Positions 3,974 to 13,122 of a stretch of 64,000 nucleotides of DNA are shown one piece after another. This DNA is from Natrinema sp. CBA1119 (GTDB lineage: Archaea; Halobacteriota; Halobacteria; Halobacteriales; Natrialbaceae). The stretch is taken from the NCBI RefSeq assembly GCF_002572525.1, contig NZ_PDBS01000001.1, forward strand, positions 1,922,001 through 1,986,000. The letters are read 5' to 3'. The notes below the pieces were generated by a model that saw only the letters and a list, made by a program, of their open reading frames with translations, was not told the DNA's origin and ran no database searches. The first letter of the stretch is position 1; each line of letters starts with the position of its first letter. The position numbers were made by a program, and so were the translations under genes.

Positions 3974-4483
3974 TCACGTCGCCGTCGTCTCGAGGGTAGC
4001 CACCCGTCGCCCATCGACGGTGAGCGTAACCGTGACCGAATCGCCCGCCGCGAGCGTCGGGCTGTTGTTAGCGATCGACACGCCGGCCCGTTCCCCCGAC
4101 GTCCACGTCGAATCGCTTTTCGCGTTGAACGGGCCGTCGGGCGCGCCGTCGAATCCCTTCGCACCGACGAACGGAATCGGCGGCTGTGCGTCCAACTCCG
4201 TGCCGTCGATTTCGATCGTTACCGACAGCGCATCGACGTCGATCGAATCGCCGGCCACGTGCTCGATCGCGATCGATGAGTCGTTTCCGTCGGCCTCGAG
4301 TTCGAAGTTTGCTGTCGGCCCGGGCGACTCGAGCGACCACGCGCCGACGCCGACCGCGACGACGGCCGCGAGACAGACGGTGAGTGCGACCAGTATGAGG
4401 ACGGCGACGACCGGACTAATGCCCCGGTTCGACTCGGGTGCGCTCGCTGACGCGGATCCCGTGGTCAGCAGGCCAGTTGTCAC
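3974..4483 (-). CDS. Type IV pilin-like protein
   Basis: A 169-residue protein with the archaeal pilin N-terminal signature: a charged leader, then RGISPVVAVLILVALTV as a single hydrophobic helix (about 20-46). The prepilin peptidase would cut just before the helix. The remainder is an acidic, Thr/Ser-rich beta-type domain that would be exposed outside the cell. Such proteins (Arch_pilin, formerly DUF1628) build adhesion pili or related surface filaments. No assembly ATPase is nearby, so it would rely on a distant pil locus. It ends 24 bp past the convergent methyltransferase gene. Confidence 0.8.
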   Translation of the reverse strand: MTTGLLTTGSASASAPESNRGISPVVAVLILVALTVCLAAVVAVGVGAWSLESPGPTANFELEADGNDSSIAIEHVAGDSIDVDALSVTIEIDGTELDAQPPIPFVGAKGFDGAPDGPFNAKSDSTWTSGERAGVSIANNSPTLAAGDSVTVTLTVDGRRVATLETTAT

Positions 4484-4560: not shown

Positions 4561-5793
4561 CTATCCGCTGATGCTCGTGCTGATACGCTTCCCGGTTGTC
4601 GTCTCCACGGTCAGCTCGTATCCGCCTCCGGGTGGTACGAACCACAGCGTCCCGTCGGCGCCTGTTTTGCCGACTTCTGCCCCATTGATACTGATCGTCG
4701 CCGATCGCAACTCACTGGTCTCCGAATCCGAGACGATGAGTTCGCTCGGCCCGTCACCCACCGTTTTGTTGACCATCAGATCCAGTCCTCCCTTTGTTAC
4801 GGGTTGCTGCGACGCCACCGGTAACGAATCATGATTCAGGAACTGCGCTTCCCGGTAAATGTCACTGGTTCCTCCGTCAAGGTACGTCTGGAGGTGACCG
4901 TGATCGTGGCTAATGTCGAGCTTGTACAGCTGTACCGTCGTGTGCATGTTAAATGACGGTGACGACCTCGTCTCGTTCGCCCACGGATACATCTCGAGTG
5001 TATACTGGTACGCGTCGGTGAGACCGCTAAATTGGGACGGTTCTGAGACGTTTCGGTTGTCGAATCGGACGGCCTCACGAACGTAGTTCTCGTTGAGCAT
5101 CGAGATAACGTAGCCGTTCTCGGAGGTTTCGACGGTAACAGTGGTCTCGCTGTCGGTCCTCTCCTGTCCGCGCGTCGCCGCCGCCAGCTGCGATCGGGCC
5201 TCGGTCCGATGCATCTCGAGTCTTCCCTGTTCGTCCTCGATCGGCAGCGAGCTGTTCGAGACTCCGCTCGACCGGTCATCGAGCTTCTCGAGTGACTTGG
5301 AGAGGACTGCGGCTTCCTCGTAGTTTCGAAGCAGCGTCTCCAGTAACCGCGAGCTCGACAGGGCCCCGTTCGCGTGCGCTCTCACGGCCCGCCGTTCGCG
5401 TGACTCGATCGCGTCGGATCGCTCTTTGATCCGATCGAACGCGTCCCGGAGCATCACTCGTTTTTCCTCGGCCGTCGCATCGTCGAACCCTCGGTCGACG
5501 ATGGCGTATTGCGCGTGATCGGCCTGGATTTCGTCGTCCATACTTGCGAGCATCGTACCGACACCGTAGCTGGGTCTGGCGTGCTCGCTTCTAGCTGCGT
5601 TCTTGAGCCAGAGGCGGTTCGTCGTGTTCTCTAACACCTGTAGATCGGAGTCGGATCCATCTGCGGTCGACAGCTGCTGAAGGGAAGAATTGGGGGTCGC
5701 CGACAGGCTGTTTCCGGGAGCCGCAACGATGGGGGCGACGAGCAGCGAGAAACCGAGAAGTACTGCGAGGAGTGGCGGAATCGCGCGGTTCAT
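4561..5793 (-). CDS. Secreted haloarchaeal protein with C-terminal beta domain
   Basis: A 410-residue exported protein. Residues 1-25 (MNRAIPPLLAVLLGFSLLVA...) are a Sec signal peptide. Residues 40-180 are charged and mostly helical. The last ~70 residues (SATISINGAEVGKTGADG...PPGGGYELTV) look like a carboxypeptidase-regulatory-like or Ig-type beta fold. It resembles haloarchaeal proteins annotated DUF7096 (from memory). Enzymatic function is unknown. It is divergent from the membrane-anchored HTH gene, which suggests that gene regulates it. A TATA box lies 22-31 bp upstream, so the transcript is probably leaderless. Confidence 0.7.
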   Translation of the reverse strand: MNRAIPPLLAVLLGFSLLVAPIVAAPGNSLSATPNSSLQQLSTADGSDSDLQVLENTTNRLWLKNAARSEHARPSYGVGTMLASMDDEIQADHAQYAIVDRGFDDATAEEKRVMLRDAFDRIKERSDAIESRERRAVRAHANGALSSSRLLETLLRNYEEAAVLSKSLEKLDDRSSGVSNSSLPIEDEQGRLEMHRTEARSQLAAATRGQERTDSETTVTVETSENGYVISMLNENYVREAVRFDNRNVSEPSQFSGLTDAYQYTLEMYPWANETRSSPSFNMHTTVQLYKLDISHDHGHLQTYLDGGTSDIYREAQFLNHDSLPVASQQPVTKGGLDLMVNKTVGDGPSELIVSDSETSELRSATISINGAEVGKTGADGTLWFVPPGGGYELTVETTTGKRISTSISG

Positions 5794-5814
5794 CGGCCGA
5801 CTCTATGCTCTCCT

Positions 5815-5824
5815 GATATAAAAA
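5815..5824 (-). promoter_or_regulatory. TATA box of the secreted protein gene
   Basis: Minus-strand TTTTATATC lies 22-31 bp upstream of the ATG at 5793, so transcription should begin at or next to the start codon. Confidence 0.6.
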
Positions 5825-5893
5825 CCGGTCGCACTCCCAGTAACTGCGAGTGCCCCGATCGAAAGATCGGTATATCAACTGCTTACCGCTCAC

Positions 5894-5982
5894 TGGAAAC
5901 CCTCTCTCCGCCGCGGAAACCCTTCACGGCCGTTAGTAACGTTTTATTTTCCGATGGAAAGTGTTTTTTCCCCCGGGAAACC
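5894..5982 (+). promoter_or_regulatory. Four GGAAA(CC) repeats in 20-bp phase, candidate operators
   Basis: GGAAAC/GGAAAG motifs begin at 5895, 5915, 5956 and 5976, giving spacings of 20, 41 and 20 bp, close to whole numbers of DNA turns. Three of the four read GGAAACC. They lie between two divergent genes. The last two flank the expected transcription start of the HTH gene (TATA-like GTTTTATTTT at 5941-5950). Use as operators is inferred from spacing and position. Confidence 0.5.
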
Positions 5983-5995
5983 ACCGTTGGTACGC

Positions 5996-7354
5996 ATGCG
6001 GGTAACCACCGCCGTCACACTCGCCCTCACAGCCCTCCTCACGATGTCCCTTTTTGGGGCGGTGGCCGTCGCGCCGGCTGCAGCCGAGACGCCGTCCGAA
6101 TACGATCGGGCGGCTACGGTCGGCGATCGGTCCCATTCGCTGTCAGGTGTCGCACAGCCCTCCCACTTCGTCACTTCGCCCCGATCCCTCCCGGTTAAGT
6201 CAGCGTTTCCGTCCGTGGCTACCGCGCAATCGGATCCGCCGCTCGAGCGGCCCGTACCGAGTCAGATCATTCGGCTCTCCGTTCAGGATAACGGTGACGT
6301 CCGGTGGACGTTCGAGAGCCGCTTTCGCATAACGAGCGCGGAAGACAAAGCGCTATTCGAAGACTATGCCGAGCAGTTCGAGGCCGGTCGGCACGATGCC
6401 ACGTTCGATCTCGACCGATTCGATGAGGCTCGACAGACCGCCGAGCGGACGACTGGCCGTGACATGTCGATCGAAGACGCCGGTTGGGACGAGCCGCGGA
6501 TCGTCGATTCGCCGAGCGGAGCCGACGGCGAGGACATCCGGATCGGCGTCATCTCGTACTCGGTTACGTGGACGAACTTCGCCACCGTCGAGGACGACCG
6601 GATCTATTTCGGTGACGCGTTCCGGACCGACAGCGGTACGTGGATGGGGTTATACGGGGGCCAACGGCTCGTCGTCGAGACGCAGTCGAATTACGCGCTC
6701 GAAACCCCGACTCCGCTCACGTGGGACGGTCCGTACGAGTTCACGAGCGACGAACTCGAGATCGTGTTCGTCCAGACCGGGAGCGGAGGTGGGAACGGGG
6801 GGCCCCTGGACCTGTCGTGGTGGTGGCTTCTCGTTATCGGTGGAATTGTCGTCACCGCTGGGATCGGTGGGTATCTCCTGTTCCGACGTGACGGGCTGAG
6901 CGACCTGCCGATTCCGACCGAGCGGTTCCCGGTGCTCGAGTCGATCGGGATCGGTGGCCGGAGCGCTAGCGAGCGGACCTCGTCGGGTGACGCGTCCGAC
7001 GGTCCCGGTCCCGCGACCGGTGCGGCAAGTTCCACGAGCCAAGCGCCCGCGCCTGGCCGGACCAGTATCGACGATAGCGATACCGGCTCCGGCACTCGCC
7101 TCGAGTTCGAAGAGCAGGTCGCCGACGACATCGATCCGGAACTGTTGAGCGACGAGGAACGCGTCCTCCGCCTGCTCGAGCGAAACGGCGGCCGGATGAA
7201 GCAGGCAACCATCGTCTCGGAGACCGGCTGGTCGAACGCCAAGGTGTCGCAATTACTCTCGAAGATGGACGACGACGACGAAATCGAGAAGCTCCGTATC
7301 GGCCGGGAGAACCTCATCACGCTGCCCGGTGTCGATCCGACCGAAACTAACTGA
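5996..7354 (+). CDS. Membrane-anchored winged-helix protein with external domain
   Basis: A 452-residue one-component regulator candidate. The start is placed at MRVTTAV because a signal peptide begins there (cleavage near AAAETPS); an upstream ATG at 5954 would add 14 unlikely residues. Residues 36-268 form an external domain (DUF7345-like), then a Gly-rich hinge, one transmembrane helix (271-295, WWWLLVIGGIVV), a variable linker, and a cytoplasmic winged helix at 383-448 (LSDEERVLRLLERNGGRMKQ..., DUF7343-like). The topology would carry an outside signal directly to DNA. The likely target is the divergent secreted-protein gene or itself. A hairpin AGCGGTTCGAACCGCT follows the stop codon. Confidence 0.75.
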   Translation: MRVTTAVTLALTALLTMSLFGAVAVAPAAAETPSEYDRAATVGDRSHSLSGVAQPSHFVTSPRSLPVKSAFPSVATAQSDPPLERPVPSQIIRLSVQDNGDVRWTFESRFRITSAEDKALFEDYAEQFEAGRHDATFDLDRFDEARQTAERTTGRDMSIEDAGWDEPRIVDSPSGADGEDIRIGVISYSVTWTNFATVEDDRIYFGDAFRTDSGTWMGLYGGQRLVVETQSNYALETPTPLTWDGPYEFTSDELEIVFVQTGSGGGNGGPLDLSWWWLLVIGGIVVTAGIGGYLLFRRDGLSDLPIPTERFPVLESIGIGGRSASERTSSGDASDGPGPATGAASSTSQAPAPGRTSIDDSDTGSGTRLEFEEQVADDIDPELLSDEERVLRLLERNGGRMKQATIVSETGWSNAKVSQLLSKMDDDDEIEKLRIGRENLITLPGVDPTETN

Positions 7355-7387: not shown

Positions 7388-8161
7388 TCAGTTGTCGCTC
7401 GTTTCCGAATCAGTAGAATTGTCGGACTCGTTGGTAGTAGTCGAGTCGTCGGTCTCAGTTTCTGAATCCGTGGTAGTATCGGAATCATCGGCAGTAGCCG
7501 AGTCGTCGGTCTCTGTTTCCGGATTGTAGTCGATGTTCTTGCCCACGGAGGCGTAGATGTCGTCCCAATCCTTGTCCTCGTCCATCAGGTAGACCTCGAC
7601 GGTCAACGGGCCGGCCCCGAACTCTTCGATCCCAGCGGGACGAACATCGATGTGGAACGTGCCGTTTTCTTCCATGCGGACTTCGCCCGTGCGTTCGATC
7701 AGTTTCTGCTTGTCTTCGTTGATCTTGACGAAGAAGTACGGCTCACCCTCTACGTCACCGTGTTCCGGCGGATCGACGTTCTCCATGCTCGTGTTGGCGA
7801 CGACCTCGAGGTTGAAGTTCGAGTAGCCGTCACCGTTCGCCGCGGGCTCTTTGTCGACGAACGTCATCGATTTGATCCGATCCCCGCGTTTGTCTTCCAT
7901 CGGTCGGTTCGGTTCCTCCGGTGGGTGCCACTCCGCGTTCGCAGTGTCGTCCCCGCCGCCGTCTCCGTCGTTCGTGTCTCCCTCGGATCCGTCCGAATCG
8001 GCGGAGTCGTCGGATCCGTTCGTTTCCGTTTCGCTCTCGTTCAATGATTCCGTATCATCTTCGCTCGACGGCTCGTCCGCTTGTGATCCCCCGAGGCCGC
8101 TACACCCGGAGAGCGCGACGAGCAGTGCGACTGCGATAACAGCGACGGTTCGGAATTGCAT
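7388..8161 (-). CDS. Lipoprotein with acidic Ser/Thr-rich tail
   Basis: A 257-residue exported protein. The start is placed at MQFRTVAVIAVALLV, which gives a short signal ending in the lipobox LSGC; the cysteine would be lipid-modified. MATDR at 8191 is a possible earlier start. After the Cys comes an Asp/Ser/Glu/Thr-rich stalk, a folded centre (about 75-200, PEEPNRPMEDKRGDRIKSMT...), and a tail of repeated SETETDDS-type units to the C-terminus. Function is not recognised. It is convergent with the membrane HTH gene and may belong to the same surface group. Confidence 0.7.
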   Translation of the reverse strand: MQFRTVAVIAVALLVALSGCSGLGGSQADEPSSEDDTESLNESETETNGSDDSADSDGSEGDTNDGDGGGDDTANAEWHPPEEPNRPMEDKRGDRIKSMTFVDKEPAANGDGYSNFNLEVVANTSMENVDPPEHGDVEGEPYFFVKINEDKQKLIERTGEVRMEENGTFHIDVRPAGIEEFGAGPLTVEVYLMDEDKDWDDIYASVGKNIDYNPETETDDSATADDSDTTTDSETETDDSTTTNESDNSTDSETSDN

Positions 8162-8376
8162 CGTATCCCGTCGTACCCGGTCGGTTGCCATTATTACAAC
8201 CCCGATAAGCGACAGTGACCCGTTCGACGGTTGCGGGGATAGAACGGGTCCGTAACGGCCGTTTTCGTCCGTTGCACGCTGCGGGACGATCCTTAGACTG
8301 TGCACAAATGCTGTGAGCCAGTTCGCTCGTGACCGCTTTTGACGAAAATATCTGCCGAGTAGAATTCCTCTATGCC
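8162..8376. other. Gene-free spacer before the tandem repeats
   Basis: Upstream region of the lipoprotein gene. No gene is recognised. The 425-bp gap between the lipoprotein and radical SAM genes consists of this stretch plus the tandem-repeat tract that follows. Confidence 0.5.
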
Positions 8377-8569
8377 CTCGCTCACTCCGTTTGCTCACGG
8401 CTCGCTTCGCTCGCCGTTCGCATCCCCGCGGTTCTCGCTCACTACGTTCGCTCACGGCTCGCTCCGCTCGCCGTTCGCATCCCCGCGGTTCTCGCTCACT
8501 ACGTTCGCTCCGAACCGCGCTCGCTCCGAACCGCGCTCGCTCCGAACCGCGCTCGCTCCGAACCGCGCC
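8377..8569. repeat. Compound tandem repeat (57-bp and 16-bp units)
   Basis: A 57-bp unit beginning CTCGCTCACT occurs at 8377-8433 and 8434-8490 with only three differences, followed by a partial third unit to 8510. A 16-bp unit (CGAACCGCGCTCGCTC) is then repeated exactly at 8511-8526, 8527-8542 and 8543-8558, with a partial fourth to 8569. It ends 17 bp from the stop codon of the radical SAM gene. Frames across it are low-complexity and probably not translated. Confidence 0.9.
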
Positions 8570-8586
8570 CCGCTCGTTCGCGGCAC

Positions 8587-9582
8587 TTATGCCAGCGGCG
8601 TCCGCTCGACGACCTGCCCATCGTATGTCGGATACTGCTCGACGATTTCACCATCCTCGAGGTCACCCTCCTCGATCATCTCTTCTAAGAGCCACCAGGC
8701 GACCTCGACGTGGTTCGTTTTGACGGTATAGAACTCCTCGGGGACGCCGAGGGCCTCGAGGCGCTCGGGGTCGGTGTAGGCCTTGCCGTAGACGAGCGTT
8801 CCGTCGTCGGTGACATCGTCGAACTCGCGGCGGACGTTGCGGGCCATGCGTTTGAGGCGGCGGCGGTGCTGGGCCGCGTCCTTGAAGACGGAGGTACAGA
8901 AGTAGACCTTCTCGTGGTCGCCCATGGCCTCGAGGATCTCCTCGCGGGAGCCGTCGACGGCGCTCATGTGATCCTCTTTGAGCTCGAAGCCTTGCTCTTG
9001 CATCCGTCGGTAGTTGCCGTCGCTCATCTCGAACTCGTTGACGTTACAGAACTCGGCGGCCCCCTCGTCGATCAGTTCGAGGAACTCCGGTTCGGCGCGG
9101 ATGCCGGGAATTTCGAAGGCCGGCGTCAGCCCCTCTTCGCGGGCGATGTAGAGGATGTCCTCCCATTCGGTGCCGTGGAGGTCGCCCCACTGTTCGTACG
9201 GCGGGTGGAAGCGAATCTCGTCGAGACCGGCTTCCGAGAGGCGGCGCATGTTCTCGCGCCCGCCGGTGATGCCGGTGTAGAGGTGCGTGTGGTGGTCCTC
9301 GCCGAACTCGTCTTTGAGTAGCTCGAGATAGTGGCAGGTCCGGTCGAGGGCTTCCTGGGGCTCGCCGCCGGTGATCGACGTGCCCAGCGCGTCCATCCGA
9401 TTCGCCTCGGTGAGAACGTCCTCGTCGCTCTCGACGAGTCGCTCGTTGGCGTAGACGTCGGTGACGTTCTTGCGGTTCTCGCCGAGCGGGCAGTAAAAGC
9501 AGTCGCGCTGGTCGCAGTAACCGTAGACGAACAGCACCATCTTGCCACCTTTCGCGCACTGCTCACAGCCCTTCGAGATCAT
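8587..9582 (-). CDS. Radical SAM protein, COG2108-like
   Basis: A 331-residue radical SAM enzyme. The iron-sulfur signature is C23-x4-C28-x2-C31 (CDQRDCFYC), one residue longer than the classical CX3CX2C. Two more cysteines lie at C6 and C9 (CEQC). SITGGEP is the SAM-binding GGE motif, and the remaining TIM-barrel strands follow (EIRFHPP, FEIPGIRAEPE). The family is annotated as related to pyruvate formate-lyase activating enzymes, but its substrate is unknown. The start at MISKG is chosen because residues before it are not conserved-looking. It is divergent from the histidine kinase gene. Confidence 0.8.
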   Translation of the reverse strand: MISKGCEQCAKGGKMVLFVYGYCDQRDCFYCPLGENRKNVTDVYANERLVESDEDVLTEANRMDALGTSITGGEPQEALDRTCHYLELLKDEFGEDHHTHLYTGITGGRENMRRLSEAGLDEIRFHPPYEQWGDLHGTEWEDILYIAREEGLTPAFEIPGIRAEPEFLELIDEGAAEFCNVNEFEMSDGNYRRMQEQGFELKEDHMSAVDGSREEILEAMGDHEKVYFCTSVFKDAAQHRRRLKRMARNVRREFDDVTDDGTLVYGKAYTDPERLEALGVPEEFYTVKTNHVEVAWWLLEEMIEEGDLEDGEIVEQYPTYDGQVVERTPLA

Positions 9583-9734
9583 TCGAGGAAACGTACCCGC
9601 CCGAGCCTCAAAAGCAGTGCGAATCCGCAGCGTCGCTGTGCCCTGTTGGTCCATCTCGTGGGTGCGGCGACGGTACTCGCCGATCTGATAGGCCATACAC
9701 TATTATACGTCTCGTCCCTAATGATGGGTATCTG

Positions 9735-11813
9735 ATGACTGGCGGGATCCACGTTCTCTGTGTCGACGACGACCCAGACTTCCGCGAGCTGACCGCCACC
9801 GTTCTCGAGCGTCGCAACGACGACATCGACGTGCAGACCGCGCGAAGCGGTCGCGACGGGCTGGCCGTCTTCGACGAGGGTCACGCGGAGCCCGATCGTG
9901 AGATCGACTGTATCGTCAGCGACTACGAGATGCCCGACATGGACGGCCTCGAGTTGCTCGCGGCGGTCCGAAAGCGCGATCGGACGATGCCGTTCATTCT
10001 GTTTACCGGAAAGGGGTCCGAAACGATCGCGAGCGAAGCGATCTCGGCGGGCGTCACCGACTACCTTCAGAAGGGGACCAGCGATCAGTACACCGTGCTG
10101 GCGAACCGAATCGAAAACGCCGTCGAGAAACGCCGCGCCGACCGGGCGCGACGCGAGAGCGAACGCGAGCTCGAGCAGTACCGCGTGCTCGTCGAGACGG
10201 CCTCCGACGCGATGTACGTCCTCGACGACGCGGGGCGCGTGACTATCGCGAACGACGCGTTTTGCGATCTCCTCGACGTCGACCACGACCGCGTCGTGGG
10301 CAGTCACATTTCGACGTTCATCAGCAGAGACTCATTCGAGCGCGGTATCAAGACGGTTCACCAACTGCATTCCGGCGGCGGAGAGTCGGACTACTTCGAA
10401 TGCGTTCTCGAGACCTCCACAGACGGGCAGCGCGTCTACGAGGCCAACGTGTCCGTCATCACCGACGATACCGGCGAGTTTGCCGGCTCGACGGCGGTCA
10501 TCCGCGACGTTACGTCGCGGAAGCAACGCGAACGCGAACTCGCGCAGTACGAACGAATTATCGAACTCGCACCGACCGCCCTCTTCATCCTCGACGCCGA
10601 CGGGTCGATCGACTGGTGTAACGACGAGTTCGCCGACGCGTTCGCCGAGGAGAAGGCGGCGCTACTCGGAACGCCGTTCCCGGAACTCGTCGACCGCGGC
10701 TACTACGACGAGCAGGTGATGTCCAAGTACGCCGAGGAGGTACGGACACTCCTCTCCTCGACAAGCGACCGCGACCGAGCGAAGTATCAGATTCAGTTTT
10801 ACTCGGCCGACGACACGGTGCTCGTTCACGACGTCCATACCAAGTTGCTCCCGCTCGAGGACGGGGAGTTCGCCGGGACGATCCACGCCATCCGCGACAT
10901 CACCCGTCGGCGTCACTACCGGCGCGAACTCGAGCGGCAAAACGACCGGCTGGAGGAGTTCACCAGCCTCGTGAGCCACGACCTGCGGAACCCGCTGAAC
11001 GTCGCCCAGGGACACCTCGAACTGCTCGACGAGCGGACCGACGGCCAACACGTCGACAAAATGCGGTGGTCGCTGTCGCGGATGGAGGAACTCGTCGACG
11101 GACTGCTCGAACTGGCCCGCCAGGGGAAGACGATCGGCGAGCAGGAGTGGCTCCCGCTCGCGTCGGCGGCTCGGGAAGCGTGGTCGACCGTCGATACCGG
11201 CGACGCTCGCCTCGAGATCGATACGGATATCGAGATCTACGGTGACGAAGCAAGGATTCGAACGCTGCTCGAGAACCTGTTTCGAAATGCCGTCGAGCAT
11301 AGCTCGACGAACCCTGCTTCGCAGGCTCAGCAGAACCCCGTGGAACACAGTTCCACGAGCCCCGACTCGCAGGCTCGTCAGGACACCGTCGAGCATCGCT
11401 CGACAGGCGATCAACTCGATTCCCGCGCTGACGACACCGAGGAACACGAGACGGACGGCGACCATGATGGGGCCAACCCCATCGTCGTCACCGTCGGCTC
11501 GCTCGAGGCGGGCGATCACGCTGCCGGCAACGAGACGCGTCCGAACGGGTTCTACGTCGAGGATACGGGACCGGGACTGCCGGCCGATCGCGAATCGCTG
11601 TTCGAGTTCGGGTATACGACAGAGGCGGACGGAACCGGACTCGGACTGGCGATCGTCGACGGGATCGTGACGGCCCACGACTGGTCGATCACGGCTCGAG
11701 ACGGGTCGTCCGGCGGCGCACGGTTCGAGATCGACAGCGTCAGAACTGCGACTGCCGACGCTGACGGCGGACTCGCGATCGATGGTGAAACCGAGACTGA
11801 CGGCACTCCCTGA
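9735..11813 (+). CDS. Hybrid sensor kinase: receiver-PAS-PAS-HisKA-HATPase
   Basis: A 692-residue soluble kinase. Residues 1-125 are a receiver domain (acidic cluster D11-D13, phosphoacceptor D63 in VSDYEMPD, K93). Two PAS domains follow (about 145-265 and 270-395), then a HisKA box with H415 in SHDLRNPLN, and an ATPase domain with N-box LFRNAVEHSS and G-boxes DTGPGLP and GTGLGL. There is no membrane segment, so it senses an internal signal or acts downstream of another kinase. The N-box is followed by a repetitive insert (about 515-585). No separate response regulator is adjacent, as is common in haloarchaea. Confidence 0.92.
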   Translation: MTGGIHVLCVDDDPDFRELTATVLERRNDDIDVQTARSGRDGLAVFDEGHAEPDREIDCIVSDYEMPDMDGLELLAAVRKRDRTMPFILFTGKGSETIASEAISAGVTDYLQKGTSDQYTVLANRIENAVEKRRADRARRESERELEQYRVLVETASDAMYVLDDAGRVTIANDAFCDLLDVDHDRVVGSHISTFISRDSFERGIKTVHQLHSGGGESDYFECVLETSTDGQRVYEANVSVITDDTGEFAGSTAVIRDVTSRKQRERELAQYERIIELAPTALFILDADGSIDWCNDEFADAFAEEKAALLGTPFPELVDRGYYDEQVMSKYAEEVRTLLSSTSDRDRAKYQIQFYSADDTVLVHDVHTKLLPLEDGEFAGTIHAIRDITRRRHYRRELERQNDRLEEFTSLVSHDLRNPLNVAQGHLELLDERTDGQHVDKMRWSLSRMEELVDGLLELARQGKTIGEQEWLPLASAAREAWSTVDTGDARLEIDTDIEIYGDEARIRTLLENLFRNAVEHSSTNPASQAQQNPVEHSSTSPDSQARQDTVEHRSTGDQLDSRADDTEEHETDGDHDGANPIVVTVGSLEAGDHAAGNETRPNGFYVEDTGPGLPADRESLFEFGYTTEADGTGLGLAIVDGIVTAHDWSITARDGSSGGARFEIDSVRTATADADGGLAIDGETETDGTP

Positions 11814-12006
11814 GTCGACTGGACACGATTCGTCTCGGCCGTCGTTCGCTCCGATTGCCGTTCGCCCGACCGCTATTCACCCGACCTTCGATTCGGTCAC
11901 GGTTCTCGCGCTGATTGATCGACGCCGATACACGGGTTCGCGTCGACTGACTGATCCGTTCTCCGTCCCAGAAGACGGAAATACCGCGGCGTGCAACCAC
12001 AACCCG

Positions 12007-13122
12007 ATGCTGCTGGTCCTCTGTGTCGACCTCGACGACGACCTCGGCCGCAAGACCGGTTTTTCGACGCCGGTCATCGGTCGCGAGCCCGTCGAGGAAG
12101 CGGCCGTCGCCCTCGCGACCGCCGACCCGGAGGATTCGGACGTCAACGTCATTTTTCAGGGGTTGCACGTCTACGACGACCTCACCGAGCGCGACGAGAG
12201 CGTCGAGGTCGCCGTCGTCACCGGTAACGACCAGGGCGACGTCAGCGCCAACCGCGAGGTCGGCGACGAGGTCGACACCGTCCTCGCGAGCCTCTCGACC
12301 GGCGAGGACGTCACCGCACTCGTGGTCACCGACGGGGCCCAGGACGAGTCCGTCATTCCGATCATCCGCTCGCGGGTCCCCATCGACGGCGTCCGGCGGG
12401 TCGTCGTTCGACAGGCGCAGAACTTAGAGTCGATGTACTACACGATCAAGCAAGTGCTGAACGACCCCGAAACGCGCGGAACGGTGCTCATTCCGCTGGG
12501 AATCCTGCTGTTGATCTATCCGCTCGCGCTGATCGGGACCTTCCTGAACCTGCCGGGGTTCGTGCTGGGGACGACGTCGGCGCTGCTCGGGCTCTATCTC
12601 ATCTCGCGCGGGCTCGGTCTCGGCGACCGACTGGACGCGACCGTCGAACGCGCCCGCCGCTCGCTGTACGCCGGGCGGACGACTCTGTTGGCGTACATCG
12701 TTGCTGCTGCCCTGTTCGTTCTCGGCGGCGTCAGCGGCATGGACACGCTCGAGTCAGTCCGTCGATCGACATCCGGCGACCTCGGGGTCCCCGTTATGCT
12801 CGCCGCGCTCGTCTACGGCTCGATCCACTGGTTCGCCGCCGCGGGGCTGACCACCAGCCTCGGCCAGATCACCGACGAGTACATCGCGGGCTCGCTCGAG
12901 TGGCGATACCTCAACGCGCCGTTTTACGTGCTCTCGATCGCGGTCGTTCTCCACGCGGTGAGCGCGTTTTTCCTCGGCGACGTCGAAATAGCATATCTCG
13001 CGGCAGCGCTGACGGCGGGAACGCTCCTGGGAATCGTGAGCACGCTCACGTTCGCCGTCGCGGAATCGCGGTTTTCCGACTCGGACCGAGAGGAAGGGAC
13101 GCGGGGAGCTGAGCGGGTCTAA
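12007..13122 (+). CDS. DUF373 family membrane protein
   Basis: A 371-residue protein with a soluble N-terminal half and about six hydrophobic helices in the C-terminal half (from ~160: VLIPLGILLLIYPLALIG). The start MLLVLCVDLDDDLGRKTGF is the typical DUF373 N-terminus, so the long upstream extension of the frame is excluded. The N-half contains acidic strands (CVDLDDD, VAVVTGNDQGDV). The family is archaeal and of unknown function. It lies 193 bp after the histidine kinase on the same strand; no functional link is apparent. Confidence 0.88.
   Translation: MLLVLCVDLDDDLGRKTGFSTPVIGREPVEEAAVALATADPEDSDVNVIFQGLHVYDDLTERDESVEVAVVTGNDQGDVSANREVGDEVDTVLASLSTGEDVTALVVTDGAQDESVIPIIRSRVPIDGVRRVVVRQAQNLESMYYTIKQVLNDPETRGTVLIPLGILLLIYPLALIGTFLNLPGFVLGTTSALLGLYLISRGLGLGDRLDATVERARRSLYAGRTTLLAYIVAAALFVLGGVSGMDTLESVRRSTSGDLGVPVMLAALVYGSIHWFAAAGLTTSLGQITDEYIAGSLEWRYLNAPFYVLSIAVVLHAVSAFFLGDVEIAYLAAALTAGTLLGIVSTLTFAVAESRFSDSDREEGTRGAERV

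Follow-up and report, generated by a model that had tools for sequence, protein, structure and literature searches.

The window analysed here, meaning the whole 64,000-nucleotide stretch of DNA (contig 1, 1922001-1986000, of the 5.06 Mb genome of the haloarchaeon Natrinema sp. CBA1119), contains two divergently transcribed genes, one encoding a predicted membrane-bound regulator (gene A) and the other an exported, putative partner protein (gene B). The features of the locus are as follows.

3974..4483, minus strand: small gene for a type IV pilin, co-directional with B and lying downstream of it after a gap of 77 nt (Pilin_N, E 2e-14)
4561..5793, minus strand: gene B, putative partner, 410 aa, exported, without a second transmembrane helix (Pfam, hydropathy)
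4588..4800, minus strand: archaeal fibronectin-III-like domain of B (Fn3_arc, PF23374; Pfam E 3e-21)
4819..5139, minus strand: DUF7094 of B (PF23375; Pfam E 1e-31)
5161..5793, minus strand: signal peptide and helical DUF7096 of B (PF23379; Pfam E 1e-49)
5815..5825, minus strand: TATA-like box of B, ~22-32 nt upstream of its ATG (sequence)
5940..5947, plus strand: second conserved TATA-like box, CGTTTTAT (sequence comparison)
5954..5969, plus strand: conserved box ATGGAAAGTGTTTTTT, read as the probable BRE/TATA core promoter of A (sequence comparison)
5996..7354, plus strand: gene A, predicted regulator, 452 aa, with signal peptide, external domain, one transmembrane helix and cytoplasmic winged helix
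5996..6085, plus strand: signal peptide of A, approximately residues 1-30 (hydropathy; its synteny equivalent HVO_0306 is predicted to be Sec-exported (SPI), PMC8241124)
6275..6694, plus strand: DUF7345 of A (PF24036), external, sensor-like (Pfam E 3.2e-35)
6812..6883, plus strand: single transmembrane helix of A, followed by FRR, positive inside (hydropathy, charge)
6884..7141, plus strand: low-complexity cytoplasmic linker of A, ~85 residues (alignment)
7142..7327, plus strand: DUF7343 winged helix-turn-helix of A (PF24034; Pfam E 7.6e-32)
7388..8455, minus strand: lipoprotein gene, convergent with A, lipobox VALSGC (sequence)

The reading frame of A is open from 5954 (466 codons), while a start at 5996 yields 452 residues. 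We consider 5996 the probable start, since the box at 5954-5969 stands at promoter position and the ATG at 5954 that it contains is ATA in several relatives. Hydropathy placed a signal-peptide segment at the N-terminus and found one more helix, bearing out the initial annotation, which had described a 452-residue protein joining a signal peptide, an external domain, one membrane helix and a cytoplasmic winged helix; the external part, within which DUF7345 lies, measures ~240 residues against the ~230 given there. A topology in which the N-terminus is exported first, with DUF7345 predicted outside and DUF7343 inside, is well supported, and we read this order of signal peptide, outside domain, transmembrane helix and winged helix as that of a putative transmembrane transcription regulator. 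DUF7343 of A shows weak similarity to MarR_2/IclR in Pfam, its homologue in L121 matches MarR_2 above the cut-off, and free-standing relatives of the domain occur (L015). Residues R400, K402, Q403, K416, S418, R434, R437 and N439 of the winged helix are invariant in 24 of 24 aligned sequences, and the external domain diverges approximately 5 times as fast as the winged helix. Since invariant basic and polar residues occupy DNA-facing positions in this winged helix, DUF7343 is likely to bind DNA. A domain search detected no HisKA/HATPase or receiver domain in either A or B, which places the pair outside the two-component sensor kinases.

The exported protein from which A had been said to diverge is B, with the domain order DUF7096-DUF7094-Fn3_arc; its DUF7096 part is modelled as helices at moderate confidence. 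Beyond the pilin gene lie a convergent menG-like methyltransferase gene and then A-type ATPase genes. A pilin-like gene and a lipoprotein gene had been proposed to flank the pair, and here the pilin held up, having both a Pilin_N match and a conserved position, but the lipoprotein, although present, did not prove to be a conserved neighbour, recurring among the compared loci only in Natrinema zhouii. The start of the lipoprotein reading frame (7388-8455) is probably annotated too far upstream. Direct repeats occur at ~8330-8700, between the lipoprotein and radical SAM genes, and are visible in the translations of overlapping reading frames there, and the region 8587-13122 encodes a radical SAM protein, a receiver-PAS-PAS-histidine kinase (9735-11813) and a DUF373 membrane protein (11782-13122).

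The pattern GAAA-N4-TTT(T/C) lies upstream of A, ~30 nt ahead of its start codon, and occurs in 23 of 31 loci (these being overlapping relatives), where 0.3 would be expected. A matching box stands ~30 nt before an unrelated gene whose product begins MGLEEEI, in two families (L147, L148, L149, L150 and L151); the pattern used in the search for matching boxes exceeded the right length by one base in most families and tests Natrinema's own family best. An autoregulatory operator was considered for the box upstream of A and rejected on the grounds of this ~30 nt spacing and of the same box before the unrelated gene. A BRE/TATA core promoter explains both more simply, and the box is therefore not counted as a predicted binding site of A. 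An unbiased palindrome scan gave weak enrichment only. Upstream of A, at 5920-5970 in the window and in L087, L046 and L094, TATA-like repeats were also observed in two or three copies at ~20 bp spacing. They are conserved across families, and the surplus copies are puzzling if just one is the promoter.

In an even sample of 97 haloarchaeal genomes across the order, DUF7345 was found in 97 and DUF7096 in 96, and listed positions place A and B adjacent and divergent in 93. Both genes are present but unlinked in one genome (G048), and no recognisable B ortholog was found in three distant genomes (G006, G007 and G008). The pilin gene was present in 20 of the 22 loci inspected at ~10-20 kb and the methyltransferase gene in about as many, and the block comprising A, B and the pilin gene spans 11 families. 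With domain matches far above cut-off and recurrence in ~95% of the order, a chance arrangement is of no concern: the A-B arrangement is old and recurrent. The A-ATPase, menG and pilin genes are, however, as stably conserved as the pair itself, so that adjacency of A and B is by itself weak evidence of a functional link.

Stronger evidence of linkage than adjacency is provided by a paralogous pair that recurs at unrelated loci and, beyond the order, in at least two genomes. The genome of Natrinema sp. CBA1119 encodes four DUF7345 proteins. After the gene for one of them (A') comes, in the same orientation, that for a small exported DUF7096-like protein (B'), and two further paralogues of A are without such a partner. 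Across families, tandem A'-B' pairs lie beside arginine biosynthesis genes, beside a clamp-loader gene and in other places. As the first tandem loci had partly been picked by their partner match, 20 further A' loci were taken blind to the partner; B' was adjacent in 12 of these and 8 had no partner. B' is a homologue of B (hhalign probability 99%, E 9e-18, 193 columns), and in the tree of A the divergent copies form one clade (SH-aLRT 92), with full-length tandem copies in a separate clade, which together indicate a joint duplication of regulator and partner. Between the two classes the recognition helix changes (SNAKVSQ against TEAKTSQ). Furthermore, a comparison of pairwise distances showed the external domain of A to be correlated with B at a partial r of 0.55 given atpI; the corresponding values were 0.16 for A-pilin, 0.25 for B-pilin and 0.35 for A-menG, and that for B-menG also lay within 0.16-0.35. 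This pattern supports, but does not decide, the view that B and the external domain of A have changed in concert beyond the species signal. The initial annotation had staked its idea of a signalling unit on a neighbourhood conserved in other genomes, and the idea survived that check, the pair being kept across the order (93/97) and recurring elsewhere in paralogous form.

Relatives outside the order extend this picture. Of 157 other genomes in the phylum, ~20 have the DUF7345 plus DUF7343 architecture, and the loci inspected share the same order of signal peptide, outside domain, transmembrane helix and winged helix, with a mostly positive charge (+2 to +7) just inside the membrane and a linker of ~15 residues between helix and HTH domain, against ~85 in A. 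An exported DUF7096-like protein is encoded close to A in L114 and L121, and an exported DUF5667 protein neighbours it in L114, L117, L123, L124 and L126; comparison of DUF7096 with DUF5667 for homology gave 53% for the small paralogue B' and 7% for B. Proteins with DUF7345 only, without the winged helix, were also found beside the exported partner (L100:5220-5927, L111:5073-5789 and L121:5393-6055), with similar short copies identified by cluster in L102 and L140; such proteins are possibly co-sensors or decoys.

In Haloferax volcanii, HVO_0309 to HVO_0306 reproduce the order menG, pilin, B, A, and the tandem pair corresponds to HVO_1944/HVO_1945, both being equated by gene order and annotation. 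HVO_0309 is menG (PMC8305020). HVO_0307 is Sec-exported with three N-glycosites, HVO_0306 is described as a 'probable transmembrane glycoprotein/HTH domain protein' and has a candidate O-glycopeptide and a predicted Sec signal (SPI), HVO_1944 carries the same transmembrane/HTH description and is N-glycosylated, and the adjacent HVO_1945 is exported with four N-glycosites; for these four proteins glycopeptides were reported and no function was given (PMC8241124). The glycosylation of HVO_1944 fits an N-terminal part lying outside, if the genes are rightly equated. Separately, the promoter of HVO_1944, the presumed tandem regulator, appears in a list of sites bound by the cell-division regulator CdrS (PMC8406309).

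Searches by structure and by name added little. AlphaFold monomers of two sequences were of low confidence (pLDDT 40 and 46), and Foldseek with these models returned no match at E <= 0.001. No relative was found by sequence search of the PDB, a scan of viral contigs found nothing, a single scan of genome contigs yielded one close relative only, and a literature search on the DUF names found nothing relevant.

Among known systems, A shares its general design with transmembrane transcription regulators, which a survey describes as single chains joining a DNA-binding domain to at least one transmembrane helix, single-pass forms being the commonest and archaeal members being counted (PMC10269533). 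A likewise combines, in one chain, a predicted DNA-binding-type domain with at least one such helix, and in the passages of the survey consulted here DUF7345/DUF7343 proteins are not singled out. ArnR is the sole characterised archaeal entry in the table of the survey, as far as those passages go, and is listed there with no associated protein. By analogy ArnR is the nearest functional counterpart of A among archaeal regulators: ArnR and ArnR1 of Sulfolobus are likewise archaeal, membrane-bound one-component regulators with a link to type IV pilus genes, but have an N-terminal HTH, HAMP-like and sensing domains and two C-terminal transmembrane helices, with no exported partner described (PMC6396743). 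The domain order of A, from signal peptide through outside domain and membrane helix to HTH, therefore differs from the ArnR architecture. A second comparison is with the bacterial co-component systems, where a membrane-tethered regulator has its outer sensor stabilised or completed by an exported protein (PMC9214523; PMC10269533). Like ToxR/ToxS and VtrA/VtrC (PMC9214523), the pair comprises a membrane-tethered HTH regulator, an adjacent gene for an exported partner (divergent in 93/97 genomes, tandem in 12/20 loci) and fast-evolving outer parts. In those systems, however, the HTH is N-terminal and CadC-like and the partner is lipocalin-like and encoded downstream in the same operon, whereas A carries its HTH at the C-terminus, B is a helical DUF7096 protein with no such Pfam match, and the genes are divergent in the window, tandem order being confined to the paralogues. 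With the HTH at the opposite end, an unrelated partner and usually divergent genes, A and B fall outside the VtrA/VtrC superfamily.

On balance, A and B probably constitute a membrane signalling module, in which a transmembrane transcription regulator would have an exported partner sensed on the outside, and a signalling function is a reasonable reading of these sequences. Co-duplication, correlated divergence and recurrent linkage indirectly suggest that the outside domain of A may sense B; weighed against the module are the wider synteny, the unlinked genome, the three genomes without a B ortholog, the partnerless copies of A' and paralogues of A, and a promoter box that is more simply a core promoter than an operator. 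In the proposed mechanism B, or something bound to it, would contact or stabilise the outside domain of A and thereby alter its dimerisation or stability, upon which the winged helix would bind or leave promoters while still held at the membrane. The likeliest targets would be A itself and the promoter of the divergent B-pilin genes, which would make the module a means of adjusting some function of the cell surface or the pilus. The module would work like ToxR/ToxS and VtrA/VtrC with the chain order reversed and with unrelated sequences. More tentatively, the pairs may represent an archaeal co-component class independent of ToxR/ToxS, made up of a type-I regulator and a helical partner of DUF7096/DUF5667 type, ancestral to haloarchaea, present also in other Halobacteriota and sometimes accompanied by a DUF7345-only decoy or co-sensor.

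The best-surviving alternative, which we regard as rather unlikely, is that A is a true transmembrane regulator for which B is a target product and not the signal, its outside domain alone sensing envelope stress, salt or a small ligand and A controlling the B-pilin operon. The divergent layout is that of a regulator and its target, B and the pilin gene appear co-transcribed, and paralogues of A without any B exist, as do the 8 of 20 tandem copies without B'; set against these, tandem A'-B' pairs and the correlated divergence of outer domain and B go beyond what a target gene needs. It is improbable that the winged helix is freed by intramembrane proteolysis, through a site-2-type protease, to work in the cytosol with B controlling the first cleavage: the long flexible linker of haloarchaea would suit such release, but the conserved block holds no protease and the linker shrinks to ~15 residues outside the order. 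We also know of no cleavage motif for A. Still less probable is that the adjacency is leftover synteny of a slowly changing chromosome block without common function, as the equal conservation of the neighbouring A-ATPase, menG and pilin genes would allow, since the paralogous pair recurs at unrelated loci and outside the order and both co-duplication and the mirror-tree signal argue otherwise. Winged helices do bind proteins in some cases, and scans of the promoter-region sequence revealed no target site for A, but that its winged helix binds no DNA and instead holds another protein, such as a general transcription factor, at the membrane is very unlikely given the invariant basic and polar residues of recognition helix and wing and the related free-standing DUF7343 proteins.

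To our knowledge, few routes by which archaea pass information from the cell surface to gene expression are understood. The A-B pair is present in nearly all haloarchaea, and its Haloferax volcanii counterparts have been seen by proteomics and never given a function. If the signalling module proposed here is correct, it would offer a direct example, amenable to genetics, of transcription being controlled from the membrane, in which B is the candidate protein input from outside the cell and a pilin gene the candidate output.
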